A DNA stretch of 64,000 nucleotides. It comes from an alpha proteobacterium BAL199. Its GTDB lineage: Bacteria > Pseudomonadota > Alphaproteobacteria > Thalassobaculales > Thalassobaculaceae. The stretch covers positions 1-64,000 of the forward strand of contig ABHC01000020.1 of NCBI GenBank assembly GCA_000171835.1. Reading direction: 5' to 3'. Shown here in pieces: positions 1,530 through 43,277 of the stretch (position 1 is its first letter; the number at the start of each line of letters is the position of its first letter). The notes under the pieces were generated by a model. It made no database searches. It was not told the origin of the DNA and saw only the letters and a list, made by a program, of their open reading frames with translations. The position numbers and the translations under genes were made by a program.

Positions 1530-2345
1530 GGTGTTGTCACGTTAACTCGTCGAGTTAGCAAGTTGGCATGCCGGTCGTTGATCAAGCGGCATGTGCCGCG
1601 GATTTCCAAGCTTCGAACGCTTCGAGCCGATGGTAGCGAATGGTGAGGGCGGAACGACGGCGGGCTGGGACAGAGTAACGATTGCGGGTTGCGGATTGCA
1701 TAGACACGAAGCGTTGTAATCCACCCGGTGATCGGAAGCCTTGCATCACCCGCTCTCGTTTTCGGAAGGGCAAGTGGCTGTTCTCGGCGCGGTTATTGAG
1801 CCCCTTGTGTGACCAATGATCAAGGCCAGGCGCGACCTCGCGCTTGGCGGCCCCATATGAGCGCAGTTTGTCCGTAATGATCCTTTTGGGCACGAAGCCC
1901 CAACGTTTCATCAGCTTGATCAAAAGCCGCTTTGCAGCGCGCTTGTCTCGCTTCGATTGTAAGATTTCCTCAAGAACGACACCGTGTTGGTCGACGGCGC
2001 GCCACAGCCAGTATGACCGGCCCGCGATCTTCACGACGACTTCGTCCAGATGCCAAACATCACCAGGGCGAGGCTGCCGTCGCCGCAGAACGTGGGCGAT
2101 CCGGGGACCGAACTTGACGGTCCAGCGCCGGATCGTCTCATACGAAACGTCCACACCACGTTCCAGCATAAGCTCCTCGACCTCGCGCAGGCTCAAGTTG
2201 AACCGGGCGTAGAGCCAGACAACATGAGAAATGATCTGAGGCGGAAAGCGGTGGCGCTTGTAGCTGATTTTCTCTGTTTGCATCGACACCGCCTACGCCC
2301 GGATCATTGAACCCGCAACCTCAGGCACGTTAACGTGACAACACC
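1530..2345 (-). mobile_element. IS6-family insertion sequence, copy 1
   Basis: An 816-bp element with perfect inner ends GGTGTTGTCACGTTAAC and its inverse. The flanking octamers (ggtatagt left, cctacgga right) do not match, so there is no target duplication. To its right it cuts directly into ISL3 copy 2; to its left are only about 24 bp before the end of ISL3 copy 1. This fits an IS6-type adjacent deletion or replicative rearrangement rather than a simple insertion. Confidence 0.92.
1582..2289 (-). CDS. IS6-family transposase (copy 1)
   Basis: A 235-residue DDE transposase of the IS6/IS26 type. It has an N-terminal helix-turn-helix (about residues 20-60) and the catalytic triad in [16 protein letters not shown] and [10 protein letters not shown]6 enzymes make cointegrates by replicative transposition and can delete neighbouring DNA. 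The protein is identical to the ones at 16339-17046 and 38159-38866, which implies very recent amplification. The frame is intact and fills most of the 816-bp element. Confidence 0.95.
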   Translation of the reverse strand: MSMQTEKISYKRHRFPPQIISHVVWLYARFNLSLREVEELMLERGVDVSYETIRRWTVKFGPRIAHVLRRRQPRPGDVWHLDEVVVKIAGRSYWLWRAVDQHGVVLEEILQSKRDKRAAKRLLIKLMKRWGFVPKRIITDKLRSYGAAKREVAPGLDHWSHKGLNNRAENSHLPFRKRERVMQGFRSPGGLQRFVSMQSATRNRYSVPARRRSALTIRYHRLEAFEAWKSAAHAA

Positions 2346-16286: not shown

Positions 16287-17102
16287 GGTGTTGTCACGTT
16301 AACTCGTCGAGTTAGCAAGTTGGCATGCCGGTCGTTGATCAAGCGGCATGTGCCGCGGATTTCCAAGCTTCGAACGCTTCGAGCCGATGGTAGCGAATGG
16401 TGAGGGCGGAACGACGGCGGGCTGGGACAGAGTAACGATTGCGGGTTGCGGATTGCATAGACACGAAGCGTTGTAATCCACCCGGTGATCGGAAGCCTTG
16501 CATCACCCGCTCTCGTTTTCGGAAGGGCAAGTGGCTGTTCTCGGCGCGGTTATTGAGCCCCTTGTGTGACCAATGATCAAGGCCAGGCGCGACCTCGCGC
16601 TTGGCGGCCCCATATGAGCGCAGTTTGTCCGTAATGATCCTTTTGGGCACGAAGCCCCAACGTTTCATCAGCTTGATCAAAAGCCGCTTTGCAGCGCGCT
16701 TGTCTCGCTTCGATTGTAAGATTTCCTCAAGAACGACACCGTGTTGGTCGACGGCGCGCCACAGCCAGTATGACCGGCCCGCGATCTTCACGACGACTTC
16801 GTCCAGATGCCAAACATCACCAGGGCGAGGCTGCCGTCGCCGCAGAACGTGGGCGATCCGGGGACCGAACTTGACGGTCCAGCGCCGGATCGTCTCATAC
16901 GAAACGTCCACACCACGTTCCAGCATAAGCTCCTCGACCTCGCGCAGGCTCAAGTTGAACCGGGCGTAGAGCCAGACAACATGAGAAATGATCTGAGGCG
17001 GAAAGCGGTGGCGCTTGTAGCTGATTTTCTCTGTTTGCATCGACACCGCCTACGCCCGGATCATTGAACCCGCAACCTCAGGCACGTTAACGTGACAACA
17101 CC
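16287..17102 (-). mobile_element. IS6-family insertion sequence, copy 2
   Basis: 816 bp, same ends and orientation as copy 1 at 1530-2345. Flanking octamers (ccggcggc left, cgatccgc right) differ, so no target duplication. It fuses a truncated creA gene to the middle of an IS5-family transposase gene, so both flanks are broken genes. Together with copy 1 it brackets 13.9 kb in direct orientation. Confidence 0.93.
16339..17046 (-). CDS. IS6-family transposase (copy 2)
   Basis: 235 residues, identical to the transposase at 1582-2289 including the N-terminal HTH and the Asp, Asp, Glu residues in [16 protein letters not shown] and NNRAENSH. The frame is intact. As one of three identical copies it makes this region prone to homologous recombination: deletion of 13.9-14.8 kb with copy 1, or inversion with copy 3. 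Confidence 0.95.
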
Positions 17103-23327: not shown

Positions 23328-23545
23328 GCGTCGCCTTCGTCACCCTTGTGTCGGCGTCATCACGCCGGCCGGCGATGCCGGTGGCAGCCGGTGCGCGTCC
23401 TCGACCGGCATTGGCCGATCGAGACGCCTGACCCTCGGTCGCTGCCGCAGTCTATTGCCATGCGGGGCAGGTGGATAGCCGGCGCGGCTTGTCCCGGGCC
23501 GGCGATGTCTGGCGTGCGTCCGCCGAACCGGCCATTGTTCCCGGC

Positions 23546-24859
23546 ATGACGATCGATTCACGCCTGCACGATCCGGAGTCCGGGGCCGTTCCGCGAACCT
23601 TGGCGGCGCGCACCCTGGCGGCGATCCGCTGGGTGGCCCTGGCCGGGCAGGTGGTGACGTTGCTGGTGGTGCACCTCGTCTTCGGCTTTCCCCTGCCGCT
23701 GGCACTGGCGCTGGCCATCGTCGGCGCCTCGGCGGTGCTCAACCTCACCCTGTTGCGCCGGCGGCCGGGCCGCGACCGGCTGAACGAGCGCGAAGCGGCG
23801 TTCTACCTCGGCTTCGACATTCTTCAGTTGGCGGCCCTGCTGTTCGTGACCGGCGGGCTGGGCAATCCCTTCGCCCTGCTGCTGCTGGCCCCGGTCACCG
23901 TGTCGGCGACCATCCTGAGCCGGCGCTCGACCATTCATCTGTGCCTGGTGGCGCTGGTCTGCGCCTCGGCGCTGGCGTTCGCCCATCTGCCGCTGCCGTG
24001 GGCGGCGGAGGACTTTCACCTGCCGCCGATCTACACCGCCGGGCTCTGGGTGGCGTTGGTGGTCGCCCTGGTGTTCAACGCCGCCTACGCCTGGTGGGTG
24101 GCGGAAGAAGCGCGGCGGATCTCGGCGGCGCTGGGGGCGACCCAGGCGGCGCTGGCCCGGCAGCAGCGGCTGGCGGCGGTCGGAGCCCTGGCGGCGGCGG
24201 CGGCCCATGAGCTTGGCAGCCCCCTGAGCACCATCGCGGTGGTGGCGCGCGAACTGGTGCGCGACCTGCCGGCCGACAGCGACGTCGCCGAGGATGCGCG
24301 GCTGTTGCTGTCGGAGAGTCAGCGCTGCCGCGACATCCTGGCCAGCCTGGCGCGGCGGTCGGAGCCCGACACCCCGTCGTCGTTCGCCGAGCTGCCGTTC
24401 GATGCGCTGGTGGAACAAGCGGCCGATCCGCACCAGCGCGACGGCGTGACCGTGATCATCGAGGCCCACGGTCCCGACGGCGCGCCGGTCCCGGCGCGCC
24501 CGCCGACGGTCCGGCCGACCCCGGAACTGCTACACGGCCTGGGGTCGATCATTCAGAACGCGGTGCAGTTCGCCGTCGCCACCGTCGAGGTGACGGTGTC
24601 CTGGGAGGACGACGGGGCGGTCGCGGTCGAGGTCGAGGACGACGGGCCGGGCTTCGCGCCCTCGGTGCTGTCGCGGTTGGGCGAGCCCTATGTGTCGACC
24701 CGCAGCGGGCGCGACGGGCACATGGGGCTCGGCCTGTTCATCGCCCGGACCCTGCTGGAGCGAACCGGCGCGGAGGTCGGATTCGCCAACCGCGTCGACG
24801 GCGGGGCCCGCGTCGACGTGCGCTGGCCGGCGGGAATCCGGGTGGAAGCGTCCCGGTGA
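23546..24859 (+). CDS. regB: Redox-sensing histidine kinase RegB/PrrB/ActS
   Basis: 437 residues. Six predicted membrane helices (about 30-190) include the ubiquinone-sensing heptapeptide GGLGNPF. The H-box AAAAHELGSPLSTIAVVARE carries the phosphorylated His. Cys in SESQRCRDILASL is the conserved redox-active cysteine of RegB. The ATP-binding part has IIQNAVQF (N box), VEDDGPGFA (G1) and GHMGLGLFIA (G2). It autophosphorylates in response to quinone redox state and signals to RegA, encoded 79 bp downstream, controlling photosynthesis, respiration, carbon or nitrogen fixation genes depending on species. The start at ATG 23546 places the first helix near residue 30, as in homologues. Confidence 0.93.
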   Translation: MTIDSRLHDPESGAVPRTLAARTLAAIRWVALAGQVVTLLVVHLVFGFPLPLALALAIVGASAVLNLTLLRRRPGRDRLNEREAAFYLGFDILQLAALLFVTGGLGNPFALLLLAPVTVSATILSRRSTIHLCLVALVCASALAFAHLPLPWAAEDFHLPPIYTAGLWVALVVALVFNAAYAWWVAEEARRISAALGATQAALARQQRLAAVGALAAAAAHELGSPLSTIAVVARELVRDLPADSDVAEDARLLLSESQRCRDILASLARRSEPDTPSSFAELPFDALVEQAADPHQRDGVTVIIEAHGPDGAPVPARPPTVRPTPELLHGLGSIIQNAVQFAVATVEVTVSWEDDGAVAVEVEDDGPGFAPSVLSRLGEPYVSTRSGRDGHMGLGLFIARTLLERTGAEVGFANRVDGGARVDVRWPAGIRVEASR

Positions 24860-24938
24860 CTTCCGGCCGTTTTGCCGCGATCATGCCGAAAGACTTGATC
24901 CGAGGCGGCAATCGGGACATGTGAAGGGGGAAATGCTG

Positions 24939-25514
24939 ATGTCCGATCACACACCCGAACCGTCGCCGGTGGCCCTGCCGTCCGGAGCCGACCCGTCGCT
25001 GCTGATCGTCGACGACGACGGCCCGCTGCGTACCCGGCTGTCGCGCGCCATGGAACGCCGCGGCTTCACGGTGACCGCGGTGGAAAGCGTGCGCGAGGGA
25101 CGGGCCGCGGCCCGGGCCAACCCGCCGGCCTACGCGATCATCGATCTTCGGCTCGCCGACGGCAGCGGGCTCGACGTGGTGACGGCGCTGCGCGAGGCGC
25201 GGCCGGATGCCCGCATCGTCATGCTCACCGGCTACGGAAACATCGCTACGGCGGTGGCCGCGGTCAAAGCCGGCGCCATCGACTACCTGCCGAAGCCGGC
25301 CGACGCCGACGCGATCTCGGCCGCCTTGCTCGACCACGCCGACGCATTGCCGCCGCCGCCGGAGAACCCGATGTCGGCCGACCGGGTGCGCTGGGAGCAC
25401 ATCCAGCGGGTCTACGAGCAGTGCGAGCGCAACGTGTCGGAGACCGCCCGCCGGCTGCGAATGCACCGGCGCACCCTTCAGCGCATCCTCGCCAAGCACG
25501 CGCCGCGCGGTTAG
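24939..25514 (+). CDS. regA: Response regulator RegA/PrrA/ActR
   Basis: 191 residues. The receiver domain has the acidic pair in LLIVDDDGPLR, phospho-acceptor Asp in YAIIDLRLADGSG, Thr in MLTGYGNIATA and Lys in DYLPKPAD. After a short proline linker (ALPPPPENPMSADRVRWEHI) comes a Fis-type HTH at the C-terminus, SETARRLRMHRRTLQRIL, which is nearly invariant in RegA proteins. Two in-frame ATGs (24933, 24939) follow GAAGGGGG; the second has the better spacing. With regB it forms the global redox two-component system. Confidence 0.94.
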   Translation: MSDHTPEPSPVALPSGADPSLLIVDDDGPLRTRLSRAMERRGFTVTAVESVREGRAAARANPPAYAIIDLRLADGSGLDVVTALREARPDARIVMLTGYGNIATAVAAVKAGAIDYLPKPADADAISAALLDHADALPPPPENPMSADRVRWEHIQRVYEQCERNVSETARRLRMHRRTLQRILAKHAPRG

Positions 25515-38102: not shown

Positions 38103-38918
38103 GGTGTTGTCACGTTAACGTGCCTGAGGTTGCGGGTTCAATGATCCGGGCGTAGGCGGTGTCGATGCAAACAGAGAAAATCAGCTACAAGCGCCACCGC
38201 TTTCCGCCTCAGATCATTTCTCATGTTGTCTGGCTCTACGCCCGGTTCAACTTGAGCCTGCGCGAGGTCGAGGAGCTTATGCTGGAACGTGGTGTGGACG
38301 TTTCGTATGAGACGATCCGGCGCTGGACCGTCAAGTTCGGTCCCCGGATCGCCCACGTTCTGCGGCGACGGCAGCCTCGCCCTGGTGATGTTTGGCATCT
38401 GGACGAAGTCGTCGTGAAGATCGCGGGCCGGTCATACTGGCTGTGGCGCGCCGTCGACCAACACGGTGTCGTTCTTGAGGAAATCTTACAATCGAAGCGA
38501 GACAAGCGCGCTGCAAAGCGGCTTTTGATCAAGCTGATGAAACGTTGGGGCTTCGTGCCCAAAAGGATCATTACGGACAAACTGCGCTCATATGGGGCCG
38601 CCAAGCGCGAGGTCGCGCCTGGCCTTGATCATTGGTCACACAAGGGGCTCAATAACCGCGCCGAGAACAGCCACTTGCCCTTCCGAAAACGAGAGCGGGT
38701 GATGCAAGGCTTCCGATCACCGGGTGGATTACAACGCTTCGTGTCTATGCAATCCGCAACCCGCAATCGTTACTCTGTCCCAGCCCGCCGTCGTTCCGCC
38801 CTCACCATTCGCTACCATCGGCTCGAAGCGTTCGAAGCTTGGAAATCCGCGGCACATGCCGCTTGATCAACGACCGGCATGCCAACTTGCTAACTCGACG
38901 AGTTAACGTGACAACACC
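38103..38918 (+). mobile_element. IS6-family insertion sequence, copy 3 (inverted)
   Basis: 816 bp, same ends as copies 1 and 2 but opposite orientation. Flanking octamers gattagcg and gttccgtg do not match. Its left flank is the end of the prophage scar, and its right flank is the last 44 codons of a CheZ-like gene, so again both sides are broken or anonymous DNA. Confidence 0.93.
38159..38866 (+). CDS. IS6-family transposase (copy 3)
   Basis: 235 residues, identical to the two other IS6 transposases in the window, with an HTH at about 20-60 and the triad in [16 protein letters not shown] and NNRAENSH. Being inverted with respect to copies 1 and 2, recombination with either would flip 21-37 kb containing regB-regA, the sulfation operon and the transporter block. 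Confidence 0.95.
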   Translation: MSMQTEKISYKRHRFPPQIISHVVWLYARFNLSLREVEELMLERGVDVSYETIRRWTVKFGPRIAHVLRRRQPRPGDVWHLDEVVVKIAGRSYWLWRAVDQHGVVLEEILQSKRDKRAAKRLLIKLMKRWGFVPKRIITDKLRSYGAAKREVAPGLDHWSHKGLNNRAENSHLPFRKRERVMQGFRSPGGLQRFVSMQSATRNRYSVPARRRSALTIRYHRLEAFEAWKSAAHAA

Positions 38919-40541: not shown

Positions 40542-40623
40542 TTCCGACTCCAGACGATGCTCTTGTTGAATTACCCGATGTTCCCATTAAATTAAAATAT
40601 TGATTTGTCTCAGGGAAATGATG

Positions 40624-40821
40624 ATGCGGATGGGCATGCAGGAACCAACCAACACGCAAACCGAGAGTACCAAGACACTGCAAAGCGCCGAGCGGAGGCG
40701 GGCGTTGGTTCGATTGGGATTGGCCGTGGGAGCGGCGTATATCGCGCCGACGGTGCTGTCGATCGACCGCAGCGCCTGGGCTATGGGTCCATCCTGCGCC
40801 AAGAACCCCAAGGGCTGCTGA
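40624..40821 (+). CDS. Small peptide 1, candidate precursor (paralogue of peptide 2)
   Basis: 65 residues when started at ATG 40624, the ATG best spaced after AGGGA at 40612; other ATGs at 40618, 40621, 40630 and 40636 are possible. The N-terminal 23 residues are polar. Then come a twin-arginine-like start (RRRALVRLGL), a hydrophobic stretch to APTVLS, and a C-terminal tail SIDRSAWAMGPSCAKNPKGC with two Cys, one being the last residue. From residue 24 to the end it matches peptide 2 at 34 of 42 positions with no gap. A modified-peptide precursor, or a Tat-targeted or membrane-anchored small protein, are the two readings. No function is known to me. Confidence 0.75.
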   Translation: MRMGMQEPTNTQTESTKTLQSAERRRALVRLGLAVGAAYIAPTVLSIDRSAWAMGPSCAKNPKGC

Positions 40822-40941
40822 CCGGCCAAGCGTCATTCCGACCCTGAATCTGGCCGCTATCCTAAGGTCGAAAACGAGTTCATGATTGTGTCCACCGTTG
40901 TTGACGAGAGTCGGTTCCGTCCGCTTCTGAAGGATACGCCA

Positions 40942-41139
40942 ATGATCGTCGCGAAACCGCCGCTAGCAGTTCAGAAGTCTATCGATGGTCAGCTTGATGC
41001 GCCGAACGACCGTCGGCGCGCTTTGGTGCGTCTTGGTCTGGCGATTGGAGGGGTCTATGTCGCTCCGACCATCCTGTCGATCGATCGAAAGGCATGGGCA
41101 ATGGGACCATCCTGTGCGGTGAACCCGAAGAATTGCTGA
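40942..41139 (+). CDS. Small peptide 2, candidate precursor (paralogue of peptide 1)
   Basis: 65 residues from ATG 40942, seven bases after AAGGA; an in-frame ATG at 40882 lacks a good ribosome site. Its length equals that of peptide 1. The first 23 residues are unrelated, but RRRALVRLGL, APTILSIDRKAWAMGPSCA and the final NPKNC align without gaps. The invariant elements are the Arg triplet, the tail IDR.AWAMGPSCA.NPK.C and the terminal Cys. The next gene (HprK-like) starts within its last 46 bp in another frame, so the two are translationally linked. Duplicate precursors with variable leaders and a constant core would be unusual for a RiPP, where the reverse is normal. Confidence 0.78.
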   Translation: MIVAKPPLAVQKSIDGQLDAPNDRRRALVRLGLAIGGVYVAPTILSIDRKAWAMGPSCAVNPKNC

Positions 41140-41984
41140 ACGATCGTACTGGCGCATTGCGAACAGCCGCTGGCCTGGTTCAGCGCCCGCTGCCTATCCC
41201 AGTTGATATCGTGCAAGCACTGACTCTGGCGGCGCCTGGGTGGGCGAGGATCATTGCCGATGGTGACGACATCTCGGTGGAGCCGGAGGGGGCCGGTCTG
41301 CGCGTTCGAGCCAACGGCATTGACCAACTTGCCGACGACGCCTGGGAGGCCGCGCACTGGGTTCTGGCCGGAGCAATCGCGGCTCGGGTCGAGGCGACGC
41401 CCGGTGCGCTGGTCCTGAACGCCGGGGCCGCCCTGCTTGCCGACGCGGCGGTGGTGTTCGCCGGCGAAAGCCACGCGGGTAAGAGTTCGGTGGCGCTGCA
41501 CCTGGCGGCCTCCGGTGTTCCTTTGCTCGGCGACGACCGGCTGATCCTCGGGACCGAAACCGACCTGCCGACCGCCGCCGGGCTCGGCCTAGCGCGCAAA
41601 GTTCGCACGCCGCTGCCCGACGACTTCAGCGAGAGCGCTTGTCGACTGGCGGCCGGCACCCGAGCCGGGCACGGCGGCGGCGCCGATGTTCTGGCCTGGG
41701 ACCCGGCGATCGATCGTCCCGCTGGCACCACGGCTGCCATAGCTCGCATTGTGTTGCTGCGCCGTGATCCTGAAGTGCGGGCGCCGCGCCTCGTCGGCCT
41801 TGGCGCAGCCGAGGCGGTGGCGCGACTGCTGCCGCTGTGCGGCCGCCACGCCGGATCGGCGGTGGCCTTGCTTGAATCTGTGACGCGGCTGGTCCGATCC
41901 GTCCCGGTCCTGCGCCTGGAGGCGCCGAATGCGGCGACCGCTGCCGAGTGCCTGATCGACGGGTCGGGTGCGGGGTCGTCATGA
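41094..41984 (+). CDS. HprK-like serine kinase (HPr-kinase-related protein)
   Basis: 296 residues from ATG 41094, which overlaps the peptide 2 gene; a start slightly downstream is possible. Central P-loop FAGESHAGKSSVALHLA, followed by LLGDDRLIL, the acidic segment seen in HPr kinase C-terminal domains; the N-terminal HPr kinase domain is absent. The family known as HprK-related kinases is found with PqqD-like proteins and presumably phosphorylates a peptide or protein other than HPr. It is the first of three overlapping genes (ATGA to pqqD-like), directly after two small peptides that are candidate substrates: each has a conserved Ser in the tail. Confidence 0.82.
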   Translation: MGNGTILCGEPEELLNDRTGALRTAAGLVQRPLPIPVDIVQALTLAAPGWARIIADGDDISVEPEGAGLRVRANGIDQLADDAWEAAHWVLAGAIAARVEATPGALVLNAGAALLADAAVVFAGESHAGKSSVALHLAASGVPLLGDDRLILGTETDLPTAAGLGLARKVRTPLPDDFSESACRLAAGTRAGHGGGADVLAWDPAIDRPAGTTAAIARIVLLRRDPEVRAPRLVGLGAAEAVARLLPLCGRHAGSAVALLESVTRLVRSVPVLRLEAPNAATAAECLIDGSGAGSS

Positions 41985-42253
41985 TCCGGTGGCGGCGCCA
42001 CCCGGAGGCACAGGCGACCGAGCTTGACGGCGAGGCGTTCCTGGTTCGCCGGGACCGCGATGCGATCCTGCACCTGAACCCGACGGCCACCGCGCTGTGG
42101 CGGGCGCTTGATGAGCCTACCAGTCGGGATGAGTTGGTCGATGTTTTCGCCTTGGCGTACCCGGAGGAACCGGCCGACCGGCTGACGGGGGACCTTGATC
42201 GGGCACTCGCGGCGCTGGTGGCGGACGGCATGGTGACGACCGACGATGAATGA
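41981..42253 (+). CDS. PqqD-like peptide-binding protein (RRE)
   Basis: 90 residues. ATELDGEAFLVRRDRDAILH, then LNPTATALWRALDEPTSRDE and VFALAYPEE are the classic PqqD-family pattern (three beta strands, LN..a..iW, helices). PqqD folds act as RiPP recognition elements that bind leader peptides and deliver them to modifying enzymes. Its ATG overlaps the kinase stop as ATGA, and its 3' end overlaps the next gene by 8 bp. In this operon it would present one or both small peptides to the kinase or nucleotidyltransferase. Confidence 0.88.
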   Translation: MIRWRRHPEAQATELDGEAFLVRRDRDAILHLNPTATALWRALDEPTSRDELVDVFALAYPEEPADRLTGDLDRALAALVADGMVTTDDE

Positions 42254-43277
42254 GCCGGAGCGAGGGGACGGACCCTTCATCGCCTACTGGCGGCTGGCTC
42301 TCGGTCTGCCGGGGGAACTGGACCGGTTGGTTGCCGACGCTGCGGTGGAGCGCCTAGCGATATGGTTGGGGCGCAGCCTGGCACGGTTTCCGGTCGAGCA
42401 CATGGTGGCGGCGGGCGCGTCCGAAGCTGCCGAAGCAGCGTTCCGCCGGTTGTCCCTGGCGCGCCAGACCGCGACGGTCAATGCCCTGCGGGCCCGGGGC
42501 CTGCGAATCCTGCCGATAAAAGGGTACAGCTCCGCGAGATTCTACGACCCGCCCTGGAAGCGAATTCTCGGTGATCTGGACCTGCTGGTGCGGCCGTCAG
42601 AGCTCACTGCGCTGGTCCACGAACTGGGCGCAATGGGTTTCCAGGCCGTGCCTTCGCCCCAGGGGGCGCTTGGTGTCACCTCGGATGTCAGCTTCCACCC
42701 GATGGTTTCGGCCGATGGCTTGGTGTCCGTCGATATCCACACCGCGCTTGACGCGTTTCCGCTGTCGTCGGTGCTTGGTGCCGACGCGGTCTTCGGTGAC
42801 GCAGACACCACGGGTCTCGGGCTTGCGCCGCATCATGCGGTCATTGCTGCACTATCCAATTTGGCCAAGGAACGGTTCGGTCCCTATTCGGTACGGCACC
42901 TGTTGGATCTTGGACGGCTGGCCTTGCAGGAGACCGTCGATTGGCCGGCGGTCGACCGGATCGTCGTGGCAGCCGGCCTCGGTCCGGCGCATGCCACCGC
43001 CCTTGGGGCGCTCCTCCGGGTCGGAGTGCCGTCCGGACGGTTGCCTGCCGGGATCGACCCGGCGTTCGGGCCGGCGATCCGGTTGGCGCGCGCGCTGGGC
43101 CACCTTCGCTTGGACCAGCCGAGCCGGTTGGCGAAAATCGTCCGGGAACTGACGTGGTGCTACACGCCGGGCACAATCGTTCGAATCTGGTGGTTCCGGA
43201 TCGCCGGGCTGCTGCGGCCGCGGTCCGGCATGCCGCCTGGAGCCAATGCCGTGGGACCGGACCGGCAGACTCGATGA
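42246..43277 (+). CDS. Nucleotidyltransferase-family protein (NTP_transf_5 type)
   Basis: 343 residues. The nucleotidyltransferase core is seen in LRILPIKGYSSARFY, then LGDLDLLVRPSE, where GDLDLLV carries the two metal-binding Asp residues, and later VSVDIHTALD with another acidic residue. The C-terminal 150 residues are mostly helical (HHAVIAALSNLAKERFG, VRHLLDLGRLAL). Family members occur in polysaccharide and RiPP-type clusters with PqqD and HprK relatives, and one proposed role is nucleotidyl transfer to a peptide or to a phosphorylated residue. It is the last gene of the peptide operon; a tRNA-Gly lies antisense 20 bp downstream. Confidence 0.82.
   Translation: MNEPERGDGPFIAYWRLALGLPGELDRLVADAAVERLAIWLGRSLARFPVEHMVAAGASEAAEAAFRRLSLARQTATVNALRARGLRILPIKGYSSARFYDPPWKRILGDLDLLVRPSELTALVHELGAMGFQAVPSPQGALGVTSDVSFHPMVSADGLVSVDIHTALDAFPLSSVLGADAVFGDADTTGLGLAPHHAVIAALSNLAKERFGPYSVRHLLDLGRLALQETVDWPAVDRIVVAAGLGPAHATALGALLRVGVPSGRLPAGIDPAFGPAIRLARALGHLRLDQPSRLAKIVRELTWCYTPGTIVRIWWFRIAGLLRPRSGMPPGANAVGPDRQTR

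Follow-up and report, generated by a model that had tools for sequence, protein, structure and literature searches.

The nearest known kind of system to the one described here is that of the linear polyphosphorylated peptides, or LPPs (lppAKBSDN of P. alginolyticus; PMC13381572), which likewise combines an HprK-like kinase, a discrete RRE and an NTP-transferase with a linear precursor and has no macrolactam cyclase. The LPP leader carries a YxxPxV[L] motif (published RRE motif, [Y/W]xxPx[L/V/I/F/A]), and mutation showed that Asp70 and Asn33 of the RRE LppB hold its Tyr and Pro. The kinase LppK phosphorylates core S3, which lies 18 residues after leader Tyr-16, and does not accept Thr, and a signal-peptidase-I-like enzyme removes the leader (PMC13381572). 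LPPs were reported as Bacillota-only and with a SipW-like peptidase and an MsbA-like exporter (PMC13381572), whereas the present system is alphaproteobacterial, has a Tat-like leader with AxA and no exporter beside the operon, and often has its peptide unlinked.

An HprK-like tailoring kinase, an NTP-transferase and an RRE also act on a precursor Ser in the paeninodin and pseudomycoidin systems (PadeK, PsmK, PsmN), where the NTP-transferase homologue PsmN adds a hexose to phospho-Ser. Unlike the locus studied here, these are lasso systems with a B2 protease and a cyclase, a C-terminal Ser and, in the paeninodin type, a WxxP leader. In the PqqA/PqqD pair, a PqqD-fold protein binds a peptide leader, as we propose below, but the PqqA-like core and radical SAM enzyme of that system were not seen beside our operon. 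The HPr-rel-A families (TIGR04352/TIGR04353) share the idea of an HprK-related kinase working with a PqqD-family peptide chaperone. The initial annotation had drawn a link to this grouping, and formal membership fails the curated cut-offs, with the kinase at 15.4 bits against 200 and the RRE at 17.7 against 35.

The window analyzed, a 64,000-nucleotide stretch of the alpha proteobacterium BAL199 (contig ABHC01000020.1), encodes two small peptides followed by a kinase, an RRE and a nucleotidyltransferase (Table 1). The unit is taken as these five genes, established by computation, because it is flanked upstream by a divergent MFS/spermidine-synthase gene and downstream by a tRNA-Gly gene. Re-reading the sequence bore out that pepA and pepB match at 34 of 42 positions from residue 24 to the end, both finish on Cys, and have unrelated N-terminal 23 residues. 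The coordinates likewise agree with the overlaps described at first, ATGA between the kinase stop and the RRE start (41981-41984) and 8 bp between the RRE and NTP_transf_5 genes (42246-42253). Both peptides have 65 residues from the chosen ATG, but the equal length, given as exact in the initial annotation, is probably incidental, because it hinges on the choice of start and relatives span 61 to 80 residues. The pepA gene opens with ATG ATG ATG in tandem. The kinase gene had been placed as starting inside pepB; the ATG at 41094 is doubtful, and the gene may instead start at TTG 41133, which overlaps the pepB stop (TTGCTGA) and is kept in two same-genus relatives.

Table 1. Features of the five-gene unit (window coordinates)
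Feature	Position	Strand	Remarks
pepA, precursor peptide, 65 aa	40624..40821	+	MRMGMQEPTNTQTESTKTLQSAERRRALVRLGLAVGAAYIAPTVLSIDRSAWA/MGPSCAKNPKGC; the slash marks the proposed cleavage
pepA leader	40693..40782	+	Tat-like RR (24-25), Y39-x-A-P42-x-V44 RRE-binding motif, predicted signal-peptidase-I site A51-W-A53
pepA Ser57 of GPSC, proposed phosphate acceptor	40792..40794	+	18 residues past Y39; compare Y-16 to S3 in LppA
pepB, precursor peptide, 65 aa, pepA paralogue	40942..41139	+	
pepB leader	41011..41100	+	R24-R25, Y39-x-A-P42 and A51-W-A53, as in pepA
pepB Ser57 of GPSC, proposed phosphate acceptor	41110..41112	+	Proposed by sequence comparison with LppA
HprK-like kinase	41133..41984	+	Frame open from ATG 41094; P-loop GESHAGKS, DD motif
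Discrete RRE (PqqD fold), 90 aa	41981..42253	+	PqqD profile E=2.2e-11
NTP_transf_5 nucleotidyltransferase	42246..43277	+	Profile E=1.5e-19; DxD in GDLDLLV

The peptide ORFs are not chance: other genomes of the genus encode both of them, at a dN much lower than dS (for example, dN 0.09 and dS 0.86-0.95), and the gene order is kept in the family-level relatives that have a peptide. Searches of Pfam, NCBIfam, PHROGs and PADLOC returned no family for either of them; a TOM6p match (E 0.09) fell under its cut-off and was taken as chance. The window also holds three copies of one 235-aa transposase, IS6-like by appearance, at 1582-2289(-), 16339-17046(-) and 38159-38866(+), one of them close to the operon.

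The folds of the RRE and of the kinase were both established computationally. The RRE profile matched TbiB1 (4e-10), LppB (9x8z; 2e-7) and TfuB1 (2e-4), and with TbiB1 and TfuB1 among its best matches it is a discrete B1-type RRE. Its predicted structure (pLDDT 91) gave a TM score of 0.78 to the TbiB1-leader complex. Against the RRE profile, PqqD structures scored far below lasso RREs. The pocket known from LppB is conserved: the equivalent of the Tyr holder Asp70 is Asp in 44 of 46 RREs, and that of Asn33, at the Pro kink, is N in 22 and D in 22 of the 46. A discrete RRE with the Tyr-binding Asp and Pro-kink Asn and an HprK-like kinase in the gene set, both criteria for LPPs, are thus found here. 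The NTP_transf_5 protein keeps its DxD, and a search of solved structures by sequence found no relative of it.

The AlphaFold2 model of the kinase (pLDDT 92.7) has the HprK/P and PEPCK folds (VIA Z about 13.5), the HPr kinase profile matches at E=1.4e-6, and GKS and DD are invariant in the alignment. Its activity is not certain, because the His that precedes the P-loop in HPr kinases is replaced by Asn. The fold alone would also suit an HPr(Ser) kinase that acts on HPr and has nothing to do with the peptides, but the protein scores only 14-25 bits against curated HprK cut-offs of 200 and more, and it shares an operon and a genomic distribution with RRE and peptide; we regard such a role as very improbable. 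Elsewhere in the same genome (L168 7311-10218; G000:C65:16000-32000) is a second, divergent system with a PqqD-HprK fusion (HprK_rel_A 90 bits, under the cut-off of 200), an NTP_transf_5 gene and a small peptide with another type of leader, RRNFLASCGKYAVVTPAAVTLL. Peptides of this second type also occur near a kinase match in genomes G107 and G189.

Because HprK, RRE and NTP-transferase accompany paeninodin and pseudomycoidin, a lasso-type system whose cyclase and protease are encoded at a distance from the operon was considered. The B2 protease (PF13471) is absent from this entire genome and from 16 of 20 genomes with the system, and no lasso genes, an asparagine-synthetase-like cyclase included, were seen beside the operon. 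The genome search largely refutes a lasso origin, which we hold to be highly improbable, and the view that this is not a standard lasso, thiopeptide or sactipeptide set stands.

The conserved part of the peptides was wider than the tail on which the initial annotation had focused. The C-terminal Cys tail is common to the nearest relatives only and was dropped as a family signature; what is constant is RR-x13-YxAPx[VIL], followed by AxA and a short core. In the window peptides, residues 23-39 make up a twin-arginine segment of Tat-like type, with the invariant Y39xAP42. The RR lies exactly 15 residues before YxxPx[VIL] in all 53 distinct family peptides that matched our search expression, in which P was obligatory, the RR-Y spacing was free and Y or F was permitted (only Y occurred). 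Two family sequences fell outside the expression, the first because of an insertion of two residues and the second because its start is broken.

Past the Pro, the window leader reads xIDRxAxA, and of the LPP consensus YxxPxVLxHQxIxFETxxS the family shares only YxxPx[VIL], without HQxIxFET. No SipW/archaeal-type signal peptidase was found in this genome, and in none of 20 system genomes did a protein exceed the TIGR02228 cut-off. The system therefore fails two defining features of LPPs, the leader past YxxP and the SipW-like peptidase. The original claim of an undescribed kind of system nevertheless no longer holds wholly, since the Bacillota LPPs (PMC13381572, May 2026) use the same enzyme trio on linear YxxP precursors. 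In literature on HPr-rel-A, HprK with PqqD, Tat with RiPPs and alphaproteobacterial RiPP kinases, we found no account of the system itself.

The cores vary across the family, from GPSC...C to PSPC and Ser-rich repeats, and some carry Thr (TPCPPP) in place of Ser, a point against Ser phosphorylation as the common route, given the preference of LppK. In both window peptides Ser57 stands at +18 from Tyr39, the register of the LPPs. In 36 of the 53 family peptides the first Ser that follows the AxA region is at +17 to +19 from the leader Tyr, so that the fit to a +18 register is good but not strict. Two loci (L061 7944-8748 and L064 7867-9077) encode tandem family peptides whose cores (PSPC...RRRRRCKKKKKK) are extremely basic; HldE, MmcB-like and TPR-methyltransferase genes lie nearby. 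The same type of peptide, here with SRPSYSRPS repeats, also occurs in a second class of the phylum, where four genomes from a single family encode it immediately ahead of a kinase-RRE fusion. These long (Y)SRPSYSRPDYSRP repeat peptides (L163, L164, L165 and L166) raise multiple phosphorylation of the repeats as a possibility.

The genome-wide distribution of the peptide and the kinase carries most of the argument. In an order-level search the peptide was present in 8 of 36 genomes, and all seven genomes other than our own show the kinase-RRE-NTP_transf_5 order directly downstream. Among 387 sampled alphaproteobacterial genomes, profile A1 found the peptide in 35, spread over 16 families, a breadth that is independent of the Fisher values that follow. 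A kinase profile built from linked loci only was next applied to these 387 genomes, with E <= 1e-40 taken as a strong match, and again returned 35 genomes. The two sets share 33 genomes (Fisher 5e-43), and among the 18 peptide genomes in which the peptide lies away from the kinase, 16 have the kinase elsewhere, compared with 2 of the 352 genomes in which no peptide was detected (Fisher 5e-24); both values overstate the significance, because related genomes are not independent, and the search scored few candidates per genome. The RRE adjoins 15 of these 16 unlinked kinases. The co-occurrence check proposed with the initial annotation was thus strongly positive.

A few genomes depart from this pattern. 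Family f83 has the kinase without an adjoining RRE, and in 3 of 3 genomes an RRE lies some 27-30 kb away on that contig. Of the two kinase-positive genomes among the 352, G167 does encode a peptide next to its kinase, a diverged one that the profile missed, while G189 has a kinase without this peptide type, a second-type peptide being found near its C12 kinase. The peptide is present in G131 and G349, where neither kinase nor RRE was found, and G287 has peptide and kinase, with no RRE found. The NTP_transf_5 gene is absent within the examined regions of many loci. Occurrence of the same peptides without these genes, named at the outset as an argument against their being substrates, is seen only as unlinked genes, and the kinase is missing from just 2 of the 35 peptide genomes.

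The Tat-like character of the leader had been put forward as another such argument. It does look Tat-like: S, T, D or N precedes the RR in 41 of the 53 family peptides, and a hydrophobic stretch and AxA follow it. With the curated Tat models the segment is below cut-off or gives no match (TIGR01409, 14.3 against 16.7 bits, in one relative only), and TatC was found in 10 of 10 genomes tested, 9 of which have the system. The TatC match of one small system-carrying genome is in two separate pieces (G283:C14:445-1081), through frameshift or decay. Tat export is no contradiction to the peptides being substrates, because the segment resembles an RRE leader as well as a Tat signal, the latter reading being motif-based.

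The peptides could still be ordinary Tat-exported small proteins, for electron transfer or metal binding, that adjoin kinase and RRE by accident, with YxAP a mere part of the signal. The residues before RR would suit this, as would the many family members that adjoin HldE/MmcB and not the kinase, but it does not account for unlinked peptides tracking the kinase or for the kept RRE pocket. Among the called neighbourhood genes, 42 have twin-arginine-like N-termini; 23 of these have Y and P at the leader places and 19 do not, one of the latter being the family member with the insertion, and Y-x-x-P is thus absent from other nearby twin-arginine N-termini. We consider this explanation quite unlikely. 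That the peptides are substrates of an RRE-guided HprK-type kinase, as first suggested, is likely, since they track the kinase even where unlinked and leader motif and RRE pocket are both kept.

Several genes recur near the system (HldE, MmcB, RegBA and an ABC-2 transporter), but none is constant and they were therefore left outside it. RegBA suggests an alternative in which the peptide, once phosphorylated by kinase and RRE, would serve in signalling or sensing, for instance in RegB/RegA redox control, and no secreted natural product is made. The kinase-RRE pair adjoins RegB/RegA-like genes in several families, and a RegB-like gene and its next gene are located at 23471-25514 of the window, about 16 kb upstream. 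However, the neighbourhood varies between families, the RegBA link may be inherited synteny, and an exported product would suit the conservation of AxA and the variability of the cores. A signalling module is accordingly judged unlikely.

Our preferred reading is that pepA and pepB are probably precursors of a linear, phosphorylated, RiPP-like exported peptide made by an RRE-guided kinase route. We infer that the YxAPTVL segment of the leader would join the RRE as an additional beta-strand and that the RRE would present the core to the HprK-like kinase, which would place one or more phosphates on the Ser of GPSC. The NTP_transf_5 enzyme might attach another moiety to the phosphate, either a hexose or a nucleotidyl group by analogy with PsmN. 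The modified peptide would be exported by Tat via the same N-terminal twin-arginine segment, and the housekeeping signal peptidase I would cut after AWA to free a Cys...Cys peptide of about 12 residues. Such an export route would explain why no peptidase or exporter stands beside the operon and, with no dedicated protease or transporter needed, would allow the precursors to be encoded at a distance from the modifying enzymes. The wider proposal has about an even chance of being right: an RRE-binding leader built into a Tat signal, with cytoplasmic modification, Tat export of the modified peptide and maturation by signal peptidase I, in a widespread and unreported proteobacterial class of phosphopeptide RiPPs.

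If true, linear phosphorylated RiPPs, at present a Bacillota family known from one paper, would extend to Proteobacteria. Their precursors would have been missed so far because they look like anonymous Tat-signal peptides and are often not encoded near the enzymes that act on them. Two fields, RiPP maturation and Tat export, would be brought together by a leader that serves at once as RRE ligand and as Tat signal.
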